A stretch of DNA of 64,000 nt from Gemmatimonadota bacterium (GTDB taxonomy: Bacteria; Gemmatimonadota; Gemmatimonadetes; Gemmatimonadales; GWC2-71-9). The stretch lies in NCBI GenBank assembly GCA_003220795.1, contig QHTK01000048.1:1-64000 (forward strand), in the 5' to 3' direction. Shown here piece by piece: positions 2,182 through 64,000 of the stretch (the stretch's first letter is position 1; every line of letters begins with the position of its first letter). Position numbers and translations under genes: made by a program. A model generated the notes under the pieces. That model searched no databases, was not told where the DNA came from, and saw only the letters and a list, made by a program, of their open reading frames with translations.

Positions 2182-3236
2182 ACGACCGCGTGCTGGTCGC
2201 CATGTCGGGCGGGGTGGACTCGTCCGTGGCGGCCGCGTTGCTCGTGGAGGCCGGGTACGAGGTCATCGGCGCCACCATGAAGCTGTTCTGCTACGGTGAT
2301 TCGGTCCCGGACCGCCCGTGCTGCTCGCTCGACTCGATCATCGACGCCCAGCTCGTGGCTCACAAGCTCGGTATTCCGCACTACGTGGTGAATCTGGAGG
2401 AGCGGTTCGGCCGCGACGTGATCGGCGACTTCGTGGCGGAGTACGCGCGCGGTCGGACGCCGATTCCATGTGTACGCTGCAACTCGTTCACGAAGTTTCG
2501 CGATTTCCTGCACCACGCCGATGCGCTGGACTGCGCCGCTGTGGCGACCGGGCACTACGTGATCACCCGCGACGGTGCACTGTACCGCGGCCGCGACGCC
2601 CAGAAGGACCAGTCGTACTTCCTGTGGGGGATCGACCGCGCCGTCGTCGCGCGGCTGCGCACGCCGGTGGGCGAGCTCACCAAGCGGGAGACGCGTGCCG
2701 TGGCCCGCCGGCTCGGGCTCGTCACCGCCGATAAGCCCGAGTCCGTAGAAATCTGCTTCGTCCCGGACGACGACTACGTCGGCGTGCTCGAGCGACACCT
2801 GCCGACGGACGCCCCGGCGCTGGCGCCCGGCCCGCTCGTCACCGTGGGTGGCGAGGTGGTGGGCGAGCACCGTGGGTTCGCGCGCTACACCATCGGCCAG
2901 CGGCGCGGGCTCCCCGGCGGTTTCGGGCGTCCGATGTACGTGGTCGCCATCCGGCCCGAGACGCGCGAAGTCGTGATCGGCTCGGGCGACGAGCTGTTCG
3001 GCCACGCTGTCGTGCTGGCCGAGCTCAACTGGCTCGCCGATCCGCCGGCGCCGGGAGCAGCGGTGCTGGTGCAGTGCCGCTATCGCGCCCGGCCCGTCCC
3101 GGCACGCGTCGGCCACGGCGCCGCCGGCACGCTGGCGCTCAAGCTCGCCGAGCCGGTGCGCGCCATCACGCCCGGGCAATCGGGCGCGCTGTACGACGCG
3201 GCCGGGCGCCTGCTCGGCGGCGGCGTGATTTCGTAG
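2178..3236 (+). CDS. mnmA: tRNA-specific 2-thiouridylase MnmA
   Basis: A 352-residue enzyme that adds sulfur at C2 of the wobble uridine in Lys, Glu and Gln tRNAs. The ATP-binding PP-loop SGGVDSS is at residues 10-16. The catalytic cysteine pair fits Cys101 (in CVRCN) and Cys193 (in VEICFVPD). The typical ARYTIGQRRGL segment is also present. The ATG at 2178 overlaps the desulfurase stop by 4 bases; the reading frame extends much further upstream but only as a shadow of that gene. Pairing with a cysteine desulfurase gives a direct sulfur relay. Confidence 0.95.
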   Translation: MNDRVLVAMSGGVDSSVAAALLVEAGYEVIGATMKLFCYGDSVPDRPCCSLDSIIDAQLVAHKLGIPHYVVNLEERFGRDVIGDFVAEYARGRTPIPCVRCNSFTKFRDFLHHADALDCAAVATGHYVITRDGALYRGRDAQKDQSYFLWGIDRAVVARLRTPVGELTKRETRAVARRLGLVTADKPESVEICFVPDDDYVGVLERHLPTDAPALAPGPLVTVGGEVVGEHRGFARYTIGQRRGLPGGFGRPMYVVAIRPETREVVIGSGDELFGHAVVLAELNWLADPPAPGAAVLVQCRYRARPVPARVGHGAAGTLALKLAEPVRAITPGQSGALYDAAGRLLGGGVIS

Positions 3237-4970: not shown

Positions 4971-6263
4971 ATGCCGACACGCCGCCACTTCGTCGAGTCG
5001 CTGGTCACCGCGGGGGCCGCGGTTCCGGCCCTCACGAATGACGGGCTCGACCGGCTGCGCGGGCTGGCGCGCCGCGTGTCCGGTCGCGCGCTCGCCGACG
5101 TCGCCCGCGACGAAGACTTCTGGCTCCAGGTCCAGCAGGCGTTCACCCTCGACCGCACGCTCATCAACCTGAACAACGGCGGCGTGAGCCCGAGCCCGCG
5201 GGTGGTCCAGGAGGCAATGCGGCGCTACCTCGACTACTCCAACACGGCGCCCGCGTACACGATGTGGCAGATCCTCGAGCCCGAGATCGAGGCGGTACGG
5301 CGCCGCCTTGCGGCGAGCTTCGGCTGCGATCCCGAGGAAATGGCGATCACCCGCAACGCGAGCGAGGCGCTCGAGACCGTGCAACTGGGGATCCCGCTCG
5401 AGCGCGGGGACGAGGTGCTCACGACGACGCAGGACTACCCGCGCATGCTGACGACGTGGCACCAGCGGGAGCGACGCGAGGGGATCGTGGTCAGGGAGAT
5501 CACCTTCCCCGTTCCCCCGCCGTCCCAGGACGACCTGGCCGAGCGGATCGAGCGCGCTATCACGCCGAAAACGAAGGTCATCCACGTCTGTCACATCACC
5601 AACCTCACCGGCCAGATCTTCCCTATCAAGCGGATCGTCCAGCGGGCGCGGGCGCGCGGGATCGAGGTGATCGTGGACGGGGCGCACGCCTACGCGCATT
5701 TCCCGTTCACGCGCGACGACCTGGACTGCGATTACTACGGCACCAGCCTCCACAAGTGGCTGCTCGCCCCCCACGGGACGGGCTTCCTGTACGTCCGCAA
5801 GGCGAAGATCGCCAGCGTTTGGCCGCTCATGGCCGCGCCACCGGAGATGAACGGCAACATTCGCAAGTTCGAAGAGATCGGAACGCACCCCGCGGCGAAC
5901 CACAATGCCATCGCCGAAGCGCTGACCTTCCACGAGGGGATCGGCGCCGAGCGCAAGGCCGCGCGGCTGCGCTACCTGTTCCAGCGGTGGGCGAAGCGGC
6001 TCGAGCACCTGCCGCGCGTCAGGATCCTCACCCCCTACGACCCGGCGCAGTCGTGCGGCCTCGCAAGTATCGCGATCGACGGGATGGACCCGAACAAGCT
6101 GGTCGCGTACCTGTGGGACACGCATCGGATCATCGTTACGCCGATCGTCCACAAGGAGTTCAGCTGCGTGCGGGTGACGCCGAATGTCTATACCACGGTC
6201 GCGGAGATCGACCGGTTCGGGGACGTGATGGAGGAGGTCCTCCGCAAGGGACTTCCCACGTGA
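4971..6263 (+). CDS. Class V aminotransferase-fold PLP enzyme with Tat-like leader
   Basis: A 430-residue PLP enzyme of the class V family, closest in motif order to isopenicillin N epimerase/EgtE-like proteins. The PLP lysine lies in TSLHKWL, after the usual Asp in IVDGAHAYAHF. The N-terminus reads TRRHFVESL followed by an Ala/Val-rich hydrophobic stretch, a Tat-like twin-arginine signal, so the enzyme may be exported folded with its cofactor. The reaction cannot be told from sequence: desulfurase, epimerase and sulfoxide lyase relatives share these motifs. A DUF2784 gene lies 5 bases upstream and a palindromic repeat directly after the stop. Confidence 0.8.
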   Translation: MPTRRHFVESLVTAGAAVPALTNDGLDRLRGLARRVSGRALADVARDEDFWLQVQQAFTLDRTLINLNNGGVSPSPRVVQEAMRRYLDYSNTAPAYTMWQILEPEIEAVRRRLAASFGCDPEEMAITRNASEALETVQLGIPLERGDEVLTTTQDYPRMLTTWHQRERREGIVVREITFPVPPPSQDDLAERIERAITPKTKVIHVCHITNLTGQIFPIKRIVQRARARGIEVIVDGAHAYAHFPFTRDDLDCDYYGTSLHKWLLAPHGTGFLYVRKAKIASVWPLMAAPPEMNGNIRKFEEIGTHPAANHNAIAEALTFHEGIGAERKAARLRYLFQRWAKRLEHLPRVRILTPYDPAQSCGLASIAIDGMDPNKLVAYLWDTHRIIVTPIVHKEFSCVRVTPNVYTTVAEIDRFGDVMEEVLRKGLPT

Positions 6264-6268
6264 GAGCA

Positions 6269-6298
6269 GGGGCGCAGCATGCTGCGCCCCTACATATT
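6269..6298. repeat. Palindromic intergenic repeat, copy 1
   Basis: A perfect 22-bp palindrome at 6269-6290: GGGGCGCAGCA followed by its exact reverse complement. It is followed by TACATATT. The same unit recurs at 7013-7034 with the same trailing bases. It starts 5 bases after the aminotransferase stop and could act as a transcription-end hairpin, although no T-run follows. Confidence 0.85.
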
Positions 6299-6322
6299 AC
6301 GGGACCGTATATCGGAGGCCCA

Positions 6323-6550
6323 ATGCGCGCCCGAGCGCTTTCGACCATCCTCGCACTACTCCTCGCCGCCTGCGGCGGCGGCCAGTCGCGGACATCGCGT
6401 ACCGCCGCAGCAGATTCGCTCACCGAGCGCCAGCGCGACAGCATCCTTGCCCAGTCGAAGATTCCGGGCGCGCGCGCCGTGGGGAAGGCGATGCGTGTCG
6501 CGGACTCGACTAGCGCAGGGATCCGGGCGGCCGACAGCATCTCGCCGTGA
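6323..6550 (+). CDS. Small putative lipoprotein (75 aa)
   Basis: A short signal peptide with lipobox LLAAC is followed by Gly-Gly-Gly and a charged, probably helical tail rich in Ala, Ser, Arg and Asp. The ATG at 6323 has a GGAGG site 5 bases upstream. No domain was recognised. Its stop overlaps the GTG start of a second lipoprotein gene. The pair lies between two copies of a palindromic repeat. Confidence 0.65.
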   Translation: MRARALSTILALLLAACGGGQSRTSRTAAADSLTERQRDSILAQSKIPGARAVGKAMRVADSTSAGIRAADSISP

Positions 6551-7008
6551 GGTGGGCGGCGGGGCTCGTGCTCGCGCTCGCCGCATGTGGGCCGTCGGAC
6601 CCCTGTCGGTCCTCCGAGATGCACCTCCGCAGCCGCTACGCGACGCGCTACGCCGGTCATTGGGTGGTGGCGCGCGGGGACACCCTCACCCTCCCCCAGA
6701 TGGGCGACCGGTTCAAGCTGAGCGCCGTGACGCTCGATACGGCTCGCGTCGCGGTGGGGCGGAGCTGTCGGTTCAGAGGCGCGCTGGTGTTTCAGGCGCC
6801 CCGGGCGGAGACGCTGGCGGTGACCTGGCTGGGCCAGCCGGAGCAGGCGCTCATTTACGGCTGGCCTGCCGAGCTGGGCCCGTTCGCCGGCATCGGCGCC
6901 GTGCGGGTGGGGGACTCGCTCGCGGGGGCGATCCTGTTCGACGAGCGCCTCGGCGTCCGCGTGCCCCCCGGCGTGACGGCGCGCTTCGTCGCGGGTCGGG
7001 CACGCTGA
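6547..7008 (+). CDS. Putative lipoprotein (153 aa)
   Basis: Starts with a GTG that overlaps the preceding stop by 4 bases. The signal peptide ends in lipobox LALAAC. The mature part has two further cysteines (DPCRSS and GRSCRF) that could pair, and a beta-rich Val/Gly/Leu composition. No family was recognised. Co-translation with the 75-residue lipoprotein suggests that they work together in the envelope. Confidence 0.65.
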   Translation: MRWAAGLVLALAACGPSDPCRSSEMHLRSRYATRYAGHWVVARGDTLTLPQMGDRFKLSAVTLDTARVAVGRSCRFRGALVFQAPRAETLAVTWLGQPEQALIYGWPAELGPFAGIGAVRVGDSLAGAILFDERLGVRVPPGVTARFVAGRAR

Positions 7009-7010
7009 GT

Positions 7011-7043
7011 TAGGGGCGCAGCATGCTGCGCCCCTACATATTT
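7011..7043. repeat. Palindromic intergenic repeat, copy 2
   Basis: The 22-bp palindrome of copy 1 (6269-6290) recurs at 7013-7034. Here symmetry extends by TA on each side to 26 bp (7011-7036), and CATATTT follows. It lies just after the 153-residue lipoprotein gene, so the lipoprotein pair is bracketed by the two copies about 740 bp apart. Confidence 0.85.
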
Positions 7044-7062
7044 ACCTCACAGGAGACCCCCA

Positions 7063-7548
7063 ATGCCCTTTACCACCGCCGAGCGCGCCGCCATGATCGA
7101 ACGGTACGCCCACGGCCCGACGCTGCTCAAGCGGGCCCTCGCCAAGGTCCCGGCCGACGCACTCAAGTGGAAGCCGGCCGCCGGCAAGTGGTCGGCGCAC
7201 GAGATCGTGGTTCACTGCGCGGATAGCGAGACGAACGCGCACATGCGGCTGCGCTACCTCGTCGCCGAGGCGGACCCGGTCATCGTGGGGTACGACCAGG
7301 ACCAGTGGGCCCTGGCGTTCGACTACCACGCCCACCCGCTCGAGCCGGCGCTGGCGACCGTGGAAGCGGTCCGGGCGAACACGCTCCCGCTGCTCCGGCG
7401 CATGACCGACCGGGACTGGCAGAAGACGGGCCGGCACTCCGAGTCGGGCCGCTACGCAACGGAGGACTGGCTCGCCATTTACGCGGAGCACCTCGAGAAG
7501 CACTCGCGCCAGATCGAACGCAACCTCGCGGAATGGAAGAGCCGATGA
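7063..7548 (+). CDS. DinB family protein
   Basis: A 161-residue four-helix protein of the DinB/YfiT superfamily. The three metal-ligand histidines expected in this fold can be placed: one in WSAHEIVVH near residue 49 and a pair in YAEHLEKH near 145-149. The family includes thiol-dependent S-transferases, which would fit the bacillithiol-type gene earlier in the window, but that link is inference. An AGGAGA ribosome site precedes the ATG. The stop overlaps the next gene by 4 bases. Confidence 0.85.
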   Translation: MPFTTAERAAMIERYAHGPTLLKRALAKVPADALKWKPAAGKWSAHEIVVHCADSETNAHMRLRYLVAEADPVIVGYDQDQWALAFDYHAHPLEPALATVEAVRANTLPLLRRMTDRDWQKTGRHSESGRYATEDWLAIYAEHLEKHSRQIERNLAEWKSR

Positions 7549-43718: not shown

Positions 43719-43769
43719 GCGACGCCCGCGGCGCGCACTGCCCGGGCTTTGCTGTTCTTGAGGTTCACC

Positions 43770-46283
43770 ATGCCGCGCTCCAGACGCCCTCTCGAGATCC
43801 ACAAATTCGGCGGAGCCTCGCTTGCGAACGGGGCGGCCATCGCGCACGCGGTGTCGGTCATCCGGGCGCAGCGGCCCGCGCCCCTCGTCGTCGTGGTCTC
43901 GGCGATGGCGGGCGTGACGGACGCGCTGCTCGATCTCGCCAGCGCGGCCGTCCGGGGCGACGCGGACGGCGCCCGCGCCACCCTCGACCGGCTGGCGGCG
44001 CAGCACCGCGCGGCGGTCGCCGCGCTCGTCCGCGCCGCTCCGCGGGCGGAGGAACTGCTGCAGGCGATCGAGGGCGCCTTCGCGGAGGTCGAGCCGCTCG
44101 CGGCCGGGTTGCGCGTGCTGCGCGAGCTGACGCCCCGGACCACGGACTATCTCGTCGCCAGAGGCGAGTACCTCTCGGCCCGCATCGTCGCGGCGGCCCT
44201 CGACACGGCCGGTTGCCCCGCCGCCTACGTGGACGCCGTGGAGGTGATCCATACCGATGGGACGTTCGGCAACGCCTCACCCGATCTCAGACGCACCGAG
44301 CGCAGCGCGCGCCGCGTGCTCCGCCCGCTGCTCGCCCGCGGCGTCGTCCCCGTCGTTCCCGGCTTCCTCGGCGCCGCTCCGGACGGACAGGCGGTCACGT
44401 TGGGGCGTGGCGGCTCGGACCTCACGGCCACGCTGCTCGCCCGCGCGCTGGGCGCGCGGGAGGTCTCTCTCTGGAAGGACGTGCCGGGTGTGCTCACCGC
44501 CGACCCGCGCATCGTGCCGGACGCGCGCGTCATCCCGCAGCTGCATGTGCGCGAAGCCGCCGAGCTCGCGTACTACGGCGCGAAGGTGCTGCACCCGAGG
44601 GCCCTCGTCCCGGTGCTGCGGCGCAGCGTCGCGGTGCGAATCCGGCCGTTCGCCGAACCGGCGTCACTCGGGACGGAGATCTCCCGGCGGCGCACCCTGA
44701 ACGCTTACCCGGTGAAGGCGCTCTCCGCGATCCCCAAGCAGGCGCTCCTCACCGTGACCGGGAGCGGCATGCTCGGCGTGCCGGGGATCGCGGCGCGCGC
44801 CTTCGCCGCGGTGCACCACGAAGGGATCTCCGTCTCGCTCATCAGCCAGGCATCCTCCGAGCAGTCGATCTGCTTCAGCGTCCCGGAGGACCAGGCGGAG
44901 CGGGCGCGCCGTGGGCTCGATGAGGCGTTCCGGCGCGAGATCGGACGGCAGGAAATCGACCGCGTGGAAGTGCGCGCCGGCGCCGCGACGCTCGTGGTCG
45001 TCGGGCTCGGCATGGCGGGGACCCCCGGCATCGCCGCCCGCGTCTTCTCGGCGCTGGCCGAGGCGAAGATCAACGTCATCGCGATCGCCCAAGGCTCCTC
45101 GGAGCTGAACCTGTCGCTCGTGGTGGACGCCGGCGACGCGGCGCGCGCCCTGCGGGTGGTGCACGGCGCCTTCCAGCTCAGCAAGATCGGCGGAGGAATG
45201 GGCGCGCACCCGGCGCGCAGCGACGTGGTGCTACTGGGCTTCGGTCAGATCGGCCGCACCCTGGCGCCCCTGATCGCGAAGCCAAAGCACGGCGCGGTGC
45301 GGTTACGGCTCGTCGGGCTGGTCGATCGCAGCGGGTTCGTGTTCGATCCGGCCGGCCTGTCGCCGCGCGGGCTCGCGACCCTTGCCGCCGCCAAGGGGAG
45401 GGGCGCGCCGCTCGCGAAAGCCAAGGGAGCGGGCGGCCACCGCGGGTCCGCGACGGACGCCGTGACGTTCGCGACGCGCCACGCGCTCTCGAATCCGATC
45501 CTGGTGGACGTCACCGCGGCCGACACGACCGAGACGCTCAGGACGGCGTTGGCGGCCGGCATGCACGTCGTGCTCGCCAACAAGCGGCCCATCACGGTAA
45601 GCCGGAGGCGCTACGACGATCTACGCGCCACCGCAGCGGCGCACGGGCGCCAGCTGCTGCACGAGGCGACGGTCGGCGCCGGATTGCCGATCATGGACAC
45701 CTATGCAAAGCTGGTGGGGTCGGGCGACCGGGTGCAGCGGATCGAGGGGTGTCCATCGGGCACGTTGGGCTATCTGTTCGGGGAGCTGGGACGCGGCCGC
45801 CGCTTCTCGCAGGCGCTGCGCGGCGCGATCGCCAAGGGATACCCGGAGCCCGACCCGCGTGAGGACCTCTCCGGCATGGACGTGGCCCGGAAGGCGCTGA
45901 TTCTCGGACGACTGCTGGGTTTTCCCGGTGAGCTCAAGGACATCGCGGTGGAGTCGCTGGTGCCGCCGGGGGCCGAGCGCCTGACGCCGGAGGAGTTCCT
46001 CGCCCGGCTCGAGGAGTACGACGCGCCGTGGACGCGGCGCCTGTCGCAGGCACGCCGGCGGGGTGGCGCGCTGCGCTATCGCGCCATCGTGACCCGGCGC
46101 CGGATTCGCGATCATGGACACCTATGCAAAGCTGGTGGGGTCGGGCGACCGGGTGCAGCGGATCGAGGGGTGTCCATCGGGCACGTTGGGCTATCTGTTC
46201 GGGGAGCTGGGACGCGGCCGCCGCTTCTCGCAGGCGCTGCGCGGCGCGATCGCCAAGGGATACCCGGAGCCCGACCCGCGTGA
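43770..46283 (+). CDS. thrA: Bifunctional aspartate kinase/homoserine dehydrogenase, frame-shifted at its 3' end
   Basis: The kinase (KFGGAS start, LGRGGSDLTATLLA) takes about residues 1-300, two ACT domains about 310-460, and homoserine dehydrogenase follows with GFGQIGRTL near 488 and NKRPIT near 605. At 46110 an exact repeat of the preceding 421 bases begins. Since 421 is not a multiple of three, the product reads 780 normal residues, then 57 out-of-frame ones to a stop at 46283. The last 60 family residues (S-L-N-G-T-D-N, G-P-G-A-G) are lost. Removing one repeat restores an 840-residue ThrA. The start at 43770 has GAGG upstream. Either a recent mutation or an assembly error. Confidence 0.9.
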   Translation: MPRSRRPLEIHKFGGASLANGAAIAHAVSVIRAQRPAPLVVVVSAMAGVTDALLDLASAAVRGDADGARATLDRLAAQHRAAVAALVRAAPRAEELLQAIEGAFAEVEPLAAGLRVLRELTPRTTDYLVARGEYLSARIVAAALDTAGCPAAYVDAVEVIHTDGTFGNASPDLRRTERSARRVLRPLLARGVVPVVPGFLGAAPDGQAVTLGRGGSDLTATLLARALGAREVSLWKDVPGVLTADPRIVPDARVIPQLHVREAAELAYYGAKVLHPRALVPVLRRSVAVRIRPFAEPASLGTEISRRRTLNAYPVKALSAIPKQALLTVTGSGMLGVPGIAARAFAAVHHEGISVSLISQASSEQSICFSVPEDQAERARRGLDEAFRREIGRQEIDRVEVRAGAATLVVVGLGMAGTPGIAARVFSALAEAKINVIAIAQGSSELNLSLVVDAGDAARALRVVHGAFQLSKIGGGMGAHPARSDVVLLGFGQIGRTLAPLIAKPKHGAVRLRLVGLVDRSGFVFDPAGLSPRGLATLAAAKGRGAPLAKAKGAGGHRGSATDAVTFATRHALSNPILVDVTAADTTETLRTALAAGMHVVLANKRPITVSRRRYDDLRATAAAHGRQLLHEATVGAGLPIMDTYAKLVGSGDRVQRIEGCPSGTLGYLFGELGRGRRFSQALRGAIAKGYPEPDPREDLSGMDVARKALILGRLLGFPGELKDIAVESLVPPGAERLTPEEFLARLEEYDAPWTRRLSQARRRGGALRYRAIVTRRRIRDHGHLCKAGGVGRPGAADRGVSIGHVGLSVRGAGTRPPLLAGAARRDRQGIPGARPA

Positions 46284-46531
46284 GGACCTCTCCGGCATGG
46301 ACGTGGCCCGGAAGGCGCTGATTCTCGGACGACTGCTGGGTTTTCCCGGTGAGCTCAAGGACATCGCGGTGGAGTCGCTGGTGCCGCCGGGGGCCGAGCG
46401 CCTGACGCCGGAGGAGTTCCTCGCCCGGCTCGAGGAGTACGACGCGCCGTGGACGCGGCGCCTGTCGCAGGCACGCCGGCGGGGTGGCGCGCTGCGCTAT
46501 CGCGCCATCGTGACCCGGCGCCGGATTCGCG
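45690..46531 (+). repeat. Exact 421-bp tandem duplication inside thrA
   Basis: Unit 1 is 45690-46110 and unit 2 is 46111-46531; I find no difference between them when read side by side. Both ends of the unit lie next to the same 12 bases (CGGCGCCGGATT at about 45675-45686, 46096-46107 and 46517-46528), a short homology that could have promoted the event. The duplication is not in phase with codons. Confidence 0.95.
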
Positions 46532-61109: not shown

Positions 61110-63980
61110 TCAGAAGTCCGACGCGAGCCCCATATACACGTGCGGGCGGCGGGCCGCCCCAGAGGGCGGATCGGCGAGCGGCGCCGCGACGCCGAGCCGG
61201 ACCTGCAGCAGGAAGTCGTAACTGATGGTGAAGTCGCCGGCGAGCTCCGCGCCCGCGGAGCGGAGCCGCGTGAGGCGCGGTGCCTGCCCTGCGTCCCAGG
61301 CGTCGCCCGCATCGCCGAACAGGTTGAGCCACAGCTTGTCGGCGCCGAACGGCAGGTGACCGAACGGCGCGCCGACGAGCGCGAGCGGCAGGCGATATTC
61401 GACGCTCAGGGTCGCGGCCCGCTCGCCCAGCAGCTCGCCGCCGCGGTAGCCACGCACCGGAAAATCGCGCGTCCCCCCGAGCGCCGCCTGGCCGAACGTC
61501 AAGACGTAGCTGCCCGACGACACACCCCCCGCCTTCAGCAGCTCGCGCAGCGGCCCGCCCGTCACGCCGGCGGCGAGCCGAACGGCGAGCACATGGTGCG
61601 CGAACCCGCCGAGTCCCGGGATGTGGGCGTACAGGCCGACGCGCGAGCGGGCTTCACTCGACCATCGAGTGCCTCCCAGCTCCTCGCGCCGCCGGTAGAA
61701 CGCCGACCAGCTGAATCCGTCCTGGTGCGAGACGGCGAGCGGGGCCGAGACGACGTGCGTCACCGCCAGCGTCACCGATCCTCCCAGGAGATCCCGGCCG
61801 TCGCACGCCGGGCAAATCGTGGCGAGCGAGGTGTCCGGGATGGTGACGAAGCGCGTCCCCTTGAACTCCGCGGCCAGTCGCACACTGGCGAACGTGCGCC
61901 AGCGCCGCGCCACGAACGTCGCGCCGAGCGCGCCCTCCTGCGTGCGCTCGGAGAGCGTGACCGGCGCGAGCAAGTCGTCCCACTCACTCGACGCCGACAC
62001 GTCGAGCGTCGGGTTGCCCAGCCCACTCCACAACCCCGCGAACCACCCGATCGCGCGGAACGGTTGCCGCGCCACGAGCCCCGCCGCGATGTAGTTGAAC
62101 CGGCCGACAGCATCGCTCCCCGCCGTGGCGCCGCCCCAGAACCGCCCGCTCCGCCCCACATCGAGAAACAGCGGCAGCCAGAAATGTGGCCGCAGCGCAG
62201 GCCACGCCGCGTACCCCGTCTCGCGCGTCGCGACGGGCGGCGCCGCGGCGAACGGAGCAGGTCGATCGACCGGTACCGGCTGGCCGGCAGGTCGCTCCCT
62301 CCGCCCATCCCCTGCGGCCGCGTGCCGCAACTCCCAGCCCCCGGCCGCGAGGGTCACGTACAGCAACGAGCCATCGGGCAGCGCCGCCGGCGCCCGGGCG
62401 CCGAGCGGCTCGGCCGTGAGCGGCTCGGCGCCCGTCGGGTCCCGCCAGCGATAGACCTGCGGGAACCCCGTCGGGTCGGTGACGAAGAGCAGCTCGCTCG
62501 CGGGTGTCCACGTCGGGTCGGCGATCACGCCCGCCGACTCCCGCAGCACCCTACCGGCCTCGGGGGAATCGGCGGGCCAGCGCAACAGCGCCCAGTGGCC
62601 GTCCGCGTTGCGCGTGCCCGCCACCCAGCGCCCGTCAGGGGACGGCACGACCTCGCCCCACGTCGCACCTGCCCCGTCGGGCGCGGAGGGCACCGGCAGC
62701 GCGGGGCGATTCCCCGCCGGTACCAGCGCGATCACCGACAGGCGGCCCCCGCCCGCGCGGGGCGCCACGAGCCTCGCCCCGTGCGTCACGCGGCGCCACT
62801 CGCCGCCCGCGACGGGAAGCCACCGGTAGAGGTCGCTGTACACCCGCCAGCGTGATGTCCACTCGAGCTGTGCCACGACCAGCGTGTCGCCGAGCCAGTC
62901 GTAGCTCACCTCGGCGTTCACTCGGTGGGTGCGTAACACCCGGAATTGCCGCGCATCGAGCACTCGCAGTTCGCTCGGCCCCCTACCGTCGTCCCGGACG
63001 TACGCGAGGTACCGGCCGTCGGGCGATACCTGTGGCACGGGCTCGGTGCGGAGCGCGCGGTCGATGACGCGCGCGCCCGAGGCGGCCGCCCCTGCCTGGG
63101 GCGGGGGCCCGGTGCCCTTGGGCCATTCCGCCTCCAGCGAACGACCCGGATCGGCGCGAGCGATCTGGCGCCCCACCCGATACGGGATCAGCTGTGCGGA
63201 CGTCGCCTCGACAAACCGGGGCACCACGGAGTCCCGCCCCTGCCCGGCCAGGTAATTAAAGAAGCGGCTGCCGTACGCGTAGGGCACGAGCCCGTCCGCC
63301 CAGCGGGAGAAGAAGACGGCGCTCGAGGGCGAGCGCGACGCATCGGCCGCGCGGTCCGCCGCGAGCACCTGGGTGTGCAGGCTACCCGTGACTCGCCCGC
63401 CGTTGGTGAACCGCGACTCGTAGTAGGTCGCCAGCCCCTCCGTCACCCAGCTGGGCTGGTACGTGTTGGGAAACAAGCCGGGGGCACGCCCGAACACCGC
63501 CTGCAGCCCGCTCCACAACCCACGCACCCGATCGAGGTGGAAGACGTGCGTGAGCTCGTGCGTCGTGACCAGCCGGAGCCAGCTGTCGTAGTGCTGTAAC
63601 CCGGGGTCGGTCGCCGGCGGTGGCAGGAAGACGTAGATCCGGTCCGAGGGAAACACCAGCGTCGCCCCGTTGGGGGAGTCGATGTCGTCGACCAGGGTGA
63701 GGTCGACCACCTGGCGGGGCGGGTGGAGCTCGGAGGCGAGCAGCCCATAGGCGCGCTCGGCCTCCCGGGCTGCGACCTGCGCCACGTCGCGATAGACCGG
63801 GCGGAAATGAACGCGGAAGTGCGGAGTGTACAGGGTGCGCCAGGGGCCGGAGGGGTCGACCTGTGCCTCGGCGCGCGCGGCGAACAGGAGGAGCACCAAA
63901 ATGCGGACTGCGGATTGCGGATTGCGGAATATCAGTGAAAGGTCGAGCCGACGACCTAAGGACGTCGTGCCAATCCGCAA
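61110..63980 (-). CDS. Outer-membrane-type protein: HExxH peptidase, beta-propeller and beta-barrel
   Basis: About 956 residues. A signal-like segment (I-L-V-L-L-L-F-A-A-R-A-E-A) precedes a gluzincin-type peptidase region (about 45-230) with the zinc motif THELTHVFH and the third ligand in SWVTEGLATYYE. Next (about 300-590) are WD40/TolB-like blades (V-S-P-D-G-R-Y-L-A-Y, P-S-P-D-G-R-W-V-A-G). The end (about 600-956) is a beta-barrel of the surface-antigen (Omp85-like) type, closing in phenylalanine. The frame begins in a repeat and is open to the window edge; TTG at 63980 is only a placeholder. A TTG/GTG near 63900 may be the real start. Confidence 0.8.
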   Translation of the reverse strand: MRIGTTSLGRRLDLSLIFRNPQSAVRILVLLLFAARAEAQVDPSGPWRTLYTPHFRVHFRPVYRDVAQVAAREAERAYGLLASELHPPRQVVDLTLVDDIDSPNGATLVFPSDRIYVFLPPPATDPGLQHYDSWLRLVTTHELTHVFHLDRVRGLWSGLQAVFGRAPGLFPNTYQPSWVTEGLATYYESRFTNGGRVTGSLHTQVLAADRAADASRSPSSAVFFSRWADGLVPYAYGSRFFNYLAGQGRDSVVPRFVEATSAQLIPYRVGRQIARADPGRSLEAEWPKGTGPPPQAGAAASGARVIDRALRTEPVPQVSPDGRYLAYVRDDGRGPSELRVLDARQFRVLRTHRVNAEVSYDWLGDTLVVAQLEWTSRWRVYSDLYRWLPVAGGEWRRVTHGARLVAPRAGGGRLSVIALVPAGNRPALPVPSAPDGAGATWGEVVPSPDGRWVAGTRNADGHWALLRWPADSPEAGRVLRESAGVIADPTWTPASELLFVTDPTGFPQVYRWRDPTGAEPLTAEPLGARAPAALPDGSLLYVTLAAGGWELRHAAAGDGRRERPAGQPVPVDRPAPFAAAPPVATRETGYAAWPALRPHFWLPLFLDVGRSGRFWGGATAGSDAVGRFNYIAAGLVARQPFRAIGWFAGLWSGLGNPTLDVSASSEWDDLLAPVTLSERTQEGALGATFVARRWRTFASVRLAAEFKGTRFVTIPDTSLATICPACDGRDLLGGSVTLAVTHVVSAPLAVSHQDGFSWSAFYRRREELGGTRWSSEARSRVGLYAHIPGLGGFAHHVLAVRLAAGVTGGPLRELLKAGGVSSGSYVLTFGQAALGGTRDFPVRGYRGGELLGERAATLSVEYRLPLALVGAPFGHLPFGADKLWLNLFGDAGDAWDAGQAPRLTRLRSAGAELAGDFTISYDFLLQVRLGVAAPLADPPSGAARRPHVYMGLASDF

Positions 63981-64000
63981 TCCGCAATCCGCAATCCGCA
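63902..64000. repeat. Inverted arrays of a 7-base repeat at the window edge
   Basis: TGCGGAT-type units (63902-63929, about four, some altered) face ATCCGCA units (63971-64000, about four, exact) across 41 bases. The arms can pair into a long hairpin. The repeat overlaps the first codons of the peptidase-barrel gene and is read there as N-P-Q-S-A-V-R. It may continue beyond the window. Confidence 0.8.

Follow-up and report, generated by a model that had tools for sequence, protein, structure and literature searches.

A dispersed double-foot GTAG REP palindrome flanking a lipoprotein-like gene pair in a Gemmatimonadota genome, and its occurrence next to and within RAYT genes

REPs tagged with the tetranucleotide GTAG have been gathered in a superfamily, and their combinations with transposase genes have been named REPtrons (Di Nocera et al. 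2013, PMC3733652). Within the TnpA-REP transposases, also called RAYTs, the sections on subclass 2.4 of Quentin et al. (2018, PMC6006769) describe double-foot REPs as well as REPs that stand in frame in tnpA between the HuH and Y motifs, and, for other TnpA-REPs, the portion of PMC8266576 used here treats cleavage at CT and the part played by GTAG. Here, we describe a 64,000-nt stretch of DNA (hereafter the window; positions 1 to 64,000 of contig QHTK01000048.1, forward strand, assembly GCA_003220795.1) from a Gemmatimonadota soil bacterium, in which two palindromes enclose a pair of small genes. These palindromes are members of a dispersed double-foot GTAG REP family, and we hold it to be very probable that they represent a non-autonomous element spread in trans by an HuH/tyrosine RAYT resembling subclass 2.4. 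This reading draws directly on the family itself, on its placement behind genes, on copies found next to RAYT genes and within them, and on presence/absence differences between congeners, and it agrees with the REP-type nature that the initial annotation had put forward as one option.

The repeat unit, its copies and their placement

The features around the two copies are listed below.

4971..6263, plus strand: class-V aminotransferase gene upstream of copy 1 (Pfam PF00266, E 6.7e-45)
6266..6293, no strand assigned: REP copy 1, 28-bp unit with its 22-bp core at 6269-6290
6323..6550, plus strand: small lipoprotein-like ORF 1, 75 aa (LAAC by eye; PT-VENN Pfam match below threshold only)
6547..7008, plus strand: small lipoprotein-like ORF 2, 153 aa (LAAC by eye; no Pfam match)
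7010..7037, no strand assigned: REP copy 2, 28-bp unit with its 22-bp core at 7013-7034
7063..7548, plus strand: DinB_2 family gene downstream of copy 2 (Pfam PF12867, E 1.3e-17)

The two copies reported initially at a distance of 744 bp are real: 31 nt are repeated exactly at 6268-6298 and 7012-7042, with starts 744 nt apart, and the 22-nt core finds two matches in the window at up to three mismatches versus none in 100 dinucleotide shuffles. Their position behind the aminotransferase gene and behind the second lipoprotein gene is equally borne out, copy 1 beginning 2 nt past the aminotransferase stop codon (6261-6263) and copy 2 only 1 nt past that of the second ORF (7006-7008). As had also been noticed, two overlapping small genes are enclosed, which share 4 nt and both carry a lipobox-like LAAC close to the N-terminus (by eye); neither has a Pfam match above the cut-off. 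These two lipoprotein-like ORFs are resident genes that lie outside the repeat. Two other features of the window are of a different kind. At 45674-46531, a near-perfect (99%) tandem duplication of 421 bp lies inside the ORF at 43749-46283, which is aspartokinase/homoserine-dehydrogenase-like (name by eye); since 421 is no multiple of 3, the frame of this ORF breaks, and the duplication is either recent or an assembly error. At 63902-64000, a (CAATCCG)n heptamer array faces an inverted TGCGGA/TTGCGGA array (arms of 27 nt, 96% complementarity, 45 nt apart) through which the window end cuts.

The repeat had been delimited as a 22-bp palindrome with trailing bases, of which TAC belongs to the unit and ATATT does not. 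The family unit is GTAGGGGCGCAGCATGCTGCGCCCCTAC, a 28-bp perfect palindrome as consensus with GTAG on both strands. In 296 flanks, the core is adjoined by T (99%), A (97%) and C (96%), the first two of these positions being fixed by the search pattern for the majority of flanks, which were located via a 26-mer; as T, A and C adjoin the core in nearly all flanks, GTAG stands at both ends of the element. Further out, the sequence is close to random, with A preferred at the fourth position. TACATATT, which includes the trailing ATATT, was rejected as part of the repeat: three of the 296 flanks start with it, and two of these three are the window copies. Each window copy has kept one intact foot (CTAC on the plus strand, thus GTAG on the minus strand), to the right of the core, and its left foot has decayed to GCAG in copy 1 and to TTAG in copy 2.

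The genome to which the window belongs is a draft of 3.30 Mb in 103 contigs, 92% complete. At up to three mismatches, the 22-mer occurs there at 18 places (seven exact, seven with one mismatch, one with two and three with three), and a reversed-pattern control gave no match in the same genome. The genome-wide count that had been proposed as a check therefore returned further copies, with 15 places in 3.3 Mb at up to two mismatches, which we took as the definition of the family in this genome. Both feet are intact at six places in this genome, which follow the broader GTAGGGGC...GCCCCTAC pattern. Among 61 genomes (the window's own and 60 relatives), nine carry the core at up to one mismatch in 2 to 53 copies each and 52 do not; the carriers are all five members of the genus and four others of the family. 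Beyond these relatives, the exact 26-mer was found in at least 118 stretches of named genomes from many phyla. The record titles among the matches listed include Gemmatimonadetes, Chloroflexi, Bacteroidetes, Planctomycetota, Acidobacteria, Acetothermia, Armatimonadetes, Desulfuromonas, Geobacter, Myxococcota, Rokuibacteriota, Calditrichaeota, Wallbacteria and two cyanobacteria, where single assignments may be wrong since many of the source genomes are metagenome bins.

Plotting the copies against stop codons, as had been suggested, placed them mostly just behind genes, with boundaries taken from a home-made gene caller based on codon usage. In the window's genome, nine of the 15 places are between codirectional genes, one is between divergent genes and five are inside genes, two of the latter near the gene end. 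For the 57 copies in the 53 named Gemmatimonadota loci among the matches listed, 45 are intergenic by the same caller (23 between convergent and 22 between codirectional genes, none between divergent ones), nine are in genes and three at an edge; in these loci, the distance to a gene 3' end is at most 30 nt in 53 of 68 cases, with a median of 20 nt. Such placement near 3' ends is as published for REPs in the part of Di Nocera et al. (2013, PMC3733652) considered here. The lipobox counts, which gave none among 30 flanking genes and none among 59 window genes, are uninformative on a lipoprotein association because the caller trims N-termini and misses even both window ORFs.

As RNA with short flanks, the two window copies fold at -21.2 and -22.4 kcal/mol, versus about -10 for shuffles. 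A known RNA family was rejected for these hairpins: Rfam gave no family above threshold, and only STnc320 appeared, scoring 20.7-28.7 bits where the gathering score is 50. Besides, a relative of the palindrome on another contig of the same genome (L054:3273-3303, contig C102) has one unpaired central base, is followed by TACGTTTTTT and lies about 30 nt past an ORF stop; it resembles a REP that has become an intrinsic terminator.

Congener comparison of the lipoprotein and RAYT loci

Each of the four congeners (G001-G004) has sequence aligning with the lipoprotein pair, whether there is one palindrome there, as in G001, or none, as in G002. At the copy 2 site, G004 has the exact core and G001 a decayed one with two core mismatches; the copy is absent from G002 and G003, and G002 has a different 0.4-kb stretch in its place. 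The copy 1 site is more eventful. In G003, a first copy is followed by a cyclase gene (PF04199, E 1.8e-46, minus strand), a second copy and the lipoprotein gene; G004 has a copy and the cyclase gene with the second copy missing, and G001 and G002 have neither palindrome nor cyclase gene. The left flank of window copy 1 is that of the first copy in G003 (the aminotransferase stop at the same spacing) and its right flank is that of the second (CATATTACGG..., with homology extending into the ORF). These flanks are most simply read as a probable deletion of the cyclase gene via recombination between two neighbouring copies, leaving copy 1; a gain of the cyclase gene in the other lineage is a possible alternative. 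Copy 1 marks a gene-content breakpoint between congeners. At a second locus of the window's genome (contig C32), both copies are common to G004, one of them is lacking in G002, and the alignment with G002 ends before the other. More generally, such presence/absence differences could also stem from deletion. In the loci L279 and L281, on the reverse strand, a promoter-like sequence TTGGCA...TAGAAT before the first lipoprotein gene was seen by eye and is common to G002 and G004. It is lacking in the window, so a REP-associated change may have altered transcription of the lipoprotein pair.

A RAYT gene lies between a ThiD-like gene (by eye) and a DUF2071 gene (Pfam) in G001, G002, G003 and in G028, which belongs to another genus. 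In the window's genome, the flanking blocks abut on contig C6, where positions 1-1223 and 2434-3234 of the G001 locus align to stretches 16 nt apart, and no RAYT remnant was found at this ThiD/DUF2071 locus. Because G001, at 91.5% over the aminotransferase region, is the nearest relative here, loss of the RAYT in the window's lineage would be the simpler reading; with a draft that is 92% complete, a second RAYT could be missing from the assembly.

RAYT genes beside and around the palindrome

In G030, a relative of the same family, a Y1 protein of 191 aa (P0001) is encoded between two perfect 28-mers 816 bp apart on contig C67. Its best NCBIfam match is REP_Tyr_transpos (NF047646), with 61.2 bits over residues 24-163 against a cut-off of 80; it is thus related to this family and no equivalog by that model. 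Searched against the 61 genomes, P0001 found matches in 12 and none in the window's own. Using an alignment of eight RAYTs (A1), 13 of the 61 relatives gave a match, namely five of nine carriers of the palindrome versus eight of 52 non-carriers (p 0.016), and so did 36 of 42 palindrome carriers of other phyla at E <= 0.001; A1 includes RAYTs from five of the 61 and two of the 42, which match by construction, and the 42 were chosen from the listed 26-mer matches as non-Gemmatimonadota by title. No A1 match was found in the window's genome, nor in the carriers G004, G009 and G034. The REPtron arrangement, a RAYT gene flanked by REPs, occurs at the G030 locus and at L283, occurs one-sidedly at L298, and does not occur in the window's genome. 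In two genomes of the same taxonomic order, the RAYT loci L253 (G047) and L254 (G045) contain RAYT-like genes that carry different palindromes: one RAYT lies between GGCGCGGATAAATCCGCGCC and its inverse, and another contains GGGCGACGCATGCGTCGCCC. These are putative cognate REP/RAYT pairs of different sequence. A variant palindrome, GTAGGGGCGCGGCACGCCGCGCCCCTAC, was also observed in G004 (L238:3287-3314, contig C92), about 55 bp from the end of an IS200-type Y1 transposase gene.

The element is also found inside RAYT genes. In G001, G002, G003 and G028 it stands in frame in the RAYT gene and is read as VGAQHAAPL (VWAQHAAPL in G003), the gene being frameshifted downstream in G002 and interrupted by stops in G003. 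Of the 30 A1-matching loci returned from distant genomes, seven have a RAYT gene that contains the exact 28-mer in frame (Desulfuromonas, three Chloroflexi, Wallbacteria, Acidobacteria gp2, whose gene has one in-frame stop, and Bacteroidetes MAG20), and in eight the RAYT gene contains another palindrome, mostly of the GTAGGGGC type. We compared 11 RAYT ORFs with an internal REP, these seven and those of the Gemmatimonadota AG36, G028, G001 and G002, leaving aside the broken copy of G003. In all 11, the REP is read in the identical frame and lies within tnpA between the HuH motif (MPNHVHG-like) and the helix preceding the Y motif. What was less expected is that the 28 nt are unchanged in 10 of the 11 genes (one change in G028) at a protein identity of 39-58% (median 47%, 55 pairs), an identity of the 28 nt that is in part selected by the search, since the named loci were located via the exact 26-mer. 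In a phylogenetic tree of 29 RAYTs (those giving a usable ORF among 31 intended), the REP-bearing ones do not group in one clade; five of 26 inner branches are well supported, and with most deep branches unresolved neither a single transfer nor many can be claimed.

The Desulfuromonas locus L082 (5122-5150 and 5516-5544) holds a REP upstream of the RAYT gene that has 19 nt beyond the 28-mer in common with the coding sequence beside the internal REP; counted from the core, the shared stretch is 22 nt, of which GTA belongs to the foot. Such sharing would fit copying from the RAYT gene to the upstream site, or the reverse. As a tentative proposal, which we would not yet favour, the in-frame REP may act as a protected master copy that travels between phyla and reseeds genomes with the same 28 bp, and once the RAYT is lost the decaying copies would serve as joints for gene loss. 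Such a master copy would travel with the RAYT gene because the internal REP encodes part of the transposase, and it would explain why the 28-mer is unchanged where RAYT identity is about 39-58%.

Origin of the palindromes and relation to known systems

Several other explanations were weighed against the dispersed REP. That the hairpins are intrinsic terminators or attenuators bounding the lipoprotein transcription unit, and were retained for that function, is unlikely in our view, even though both copies stand right behind stop codons and fold strongly as RNA, and although the relative at L054 combines its one-base loop with a T6 tail just behind an ORF. No terminator-like site (GC stem and U tract) was found at 6100-7200, so intrinsic termination, and with it the paired transcription-end hairpins considered at the outset, is unsupported by the sequence. 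In the same vein, the tail UACAUAUU is no U tract, a conserved T tail is missing from the element across the 296 flanks, copies also occur inside genes (RAYT genes included), and G002 lacks the palindrome at both sites with the genes still there. A role of the hairpins in stabilising or processing mRNA ends is possible. The notion that the palindromes are the ends of an inserted cassette carrying the lipoprotein pair, also raised initially, accounts for two copies that enclose exactly both genes and could invoke the different single gene, the cyclase, enclosed by two copies in G003. It is nevertheless extremely improbable and largely refuted by the presence of the pair in all four congeners, with one palindrome in G001 and none in G002; besides, a family with singletons throughout the genome needs no paired ends. 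What survives of the cassette idea is that copy 1 coincides with the gain or loss of another gene, that of the cyclase.

A binding site for a widespread DNA-binding protein, held by selection and not by transposition, would fit the same 26-mer in many phyla and its constancy inside RAYT genes of low protein identity. Against this stand the patchy occurrence (9 of 61 relatives), the presence/absence differences between congeners, the avoidance of promoters (none of the 57 copies in the named loci, among the matches listed, lies between divergent genes) and the direct link to RAYT genes, which together make it very improbable. A last alternative concerns the transposase. The Pfam Y1_Tnp search gave two genes in the window's genome, both of IS200 type by NCBIfam (one above and one just below the cut-off), which could act on the element instead of a REP-type RAYT. 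PF01797 matches are present in all nine carriers versus 19 of 52 non-carriers (p 0.0004) and one IS200-type gene adjoins a variant palindrome in G004, but five of the nine carriers belong to one genus, and no family palindrome lies close to the two Y1 genes, the nearest variant being about 1.5 kb away, which disfavours them as cognate transposases. Moreover, no IS200-type gene was seen that contains the exact element or is bracketed by it, whereas REP-type RAYTs do both. We thus regard a spread by IS200-type enzymes as quite improbable, and return to a REP moved by a RAYT, with copies genome-wide, mostly just behind genes, and bracketing RAYT genes or inside them.

According to this REP/RAYT reading, the element would fold as a single-stranded DNA hairpin that the RAYT cuts and spreads in trans; that GTAG guides cleavage at CT and that copying uses single-stranded DNA is presumed by analogy with the other TnpA-REPs for which this was published. 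As the RAYT is absent from the window's genome, its copies are probably immobile remnants in decay, as the one damaged foot of each window copy would suggest. They would persist where they are harmless, just past stop codons, and a strong transcript hairpin may there stabilise mRNA ends. In addition, copy 1 is probably the trace of a recombination between neighbouring copies that removed the cyclase gene.

These results name a repeat scattered through the genomes of many uncultured bacteria and link it to its cognate transposase. They also show REP copies at a breakpoint of gene gain or loss between closely related species, and provide a clean set (RAYTs with or without an internal REP, genomes with or without a RAYT) for the question of how REP and transposase travel together. 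Literature searches with GTAGGGGC, GCAGCATGCTGC and REP plus Gemmatimonad, which covered titles and the openings of abstracts, found no printed record of the exact 28-mer.

REPINs are inverted REP pairs with a spacer, whereas most copies described here stand singly, at distances of 744 bp or more. The transposase type and the non-autonomous spread are the same, as far as the relevant part of PMC6006769 goes. Rickettsia palindromic elements similarly make in-frame palindromic inserts in coding genes, but their sequence is another one, and their presence in their own transposase gene is not mentioned in the part of PMC3733652 considered. With the GTAG superfamily, our element has in common a short GTAG-tagged palindrome near gene 3' ends, sometimes within ORFs, and RAYT-associated REPtrons; the classical families, as portrayed in that part of PMC3733652, have GTAG at one end and short loops, in contrast to GTAG at both ends and a DNA stem with no unpaired loop here, and Gemmatimonadota are not mentioned in its main text. 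The closest likeness concerns features of subclass 2.4, as set out in the sections of PMC6006769 on it, and not phylogenetic placement: GT[AG]G at one end with its reverse complement at the other, a REP that can insert in frame in tnpA between the HuH and Y motifs, REPs that flank the gene, and a patchy distribution consistent with horizontal transfer. Unlike what those sections describe, the window's genome has no RAYT, and one exact REP is common to several phyla, for which we found no counterpart in them. Since double-foot REPs and REPs within tnpA are both reported there, the two striking features of the present element are already in print as a kind: the double-foot GTAG REP with its RAYT is known, and what is new is this member.
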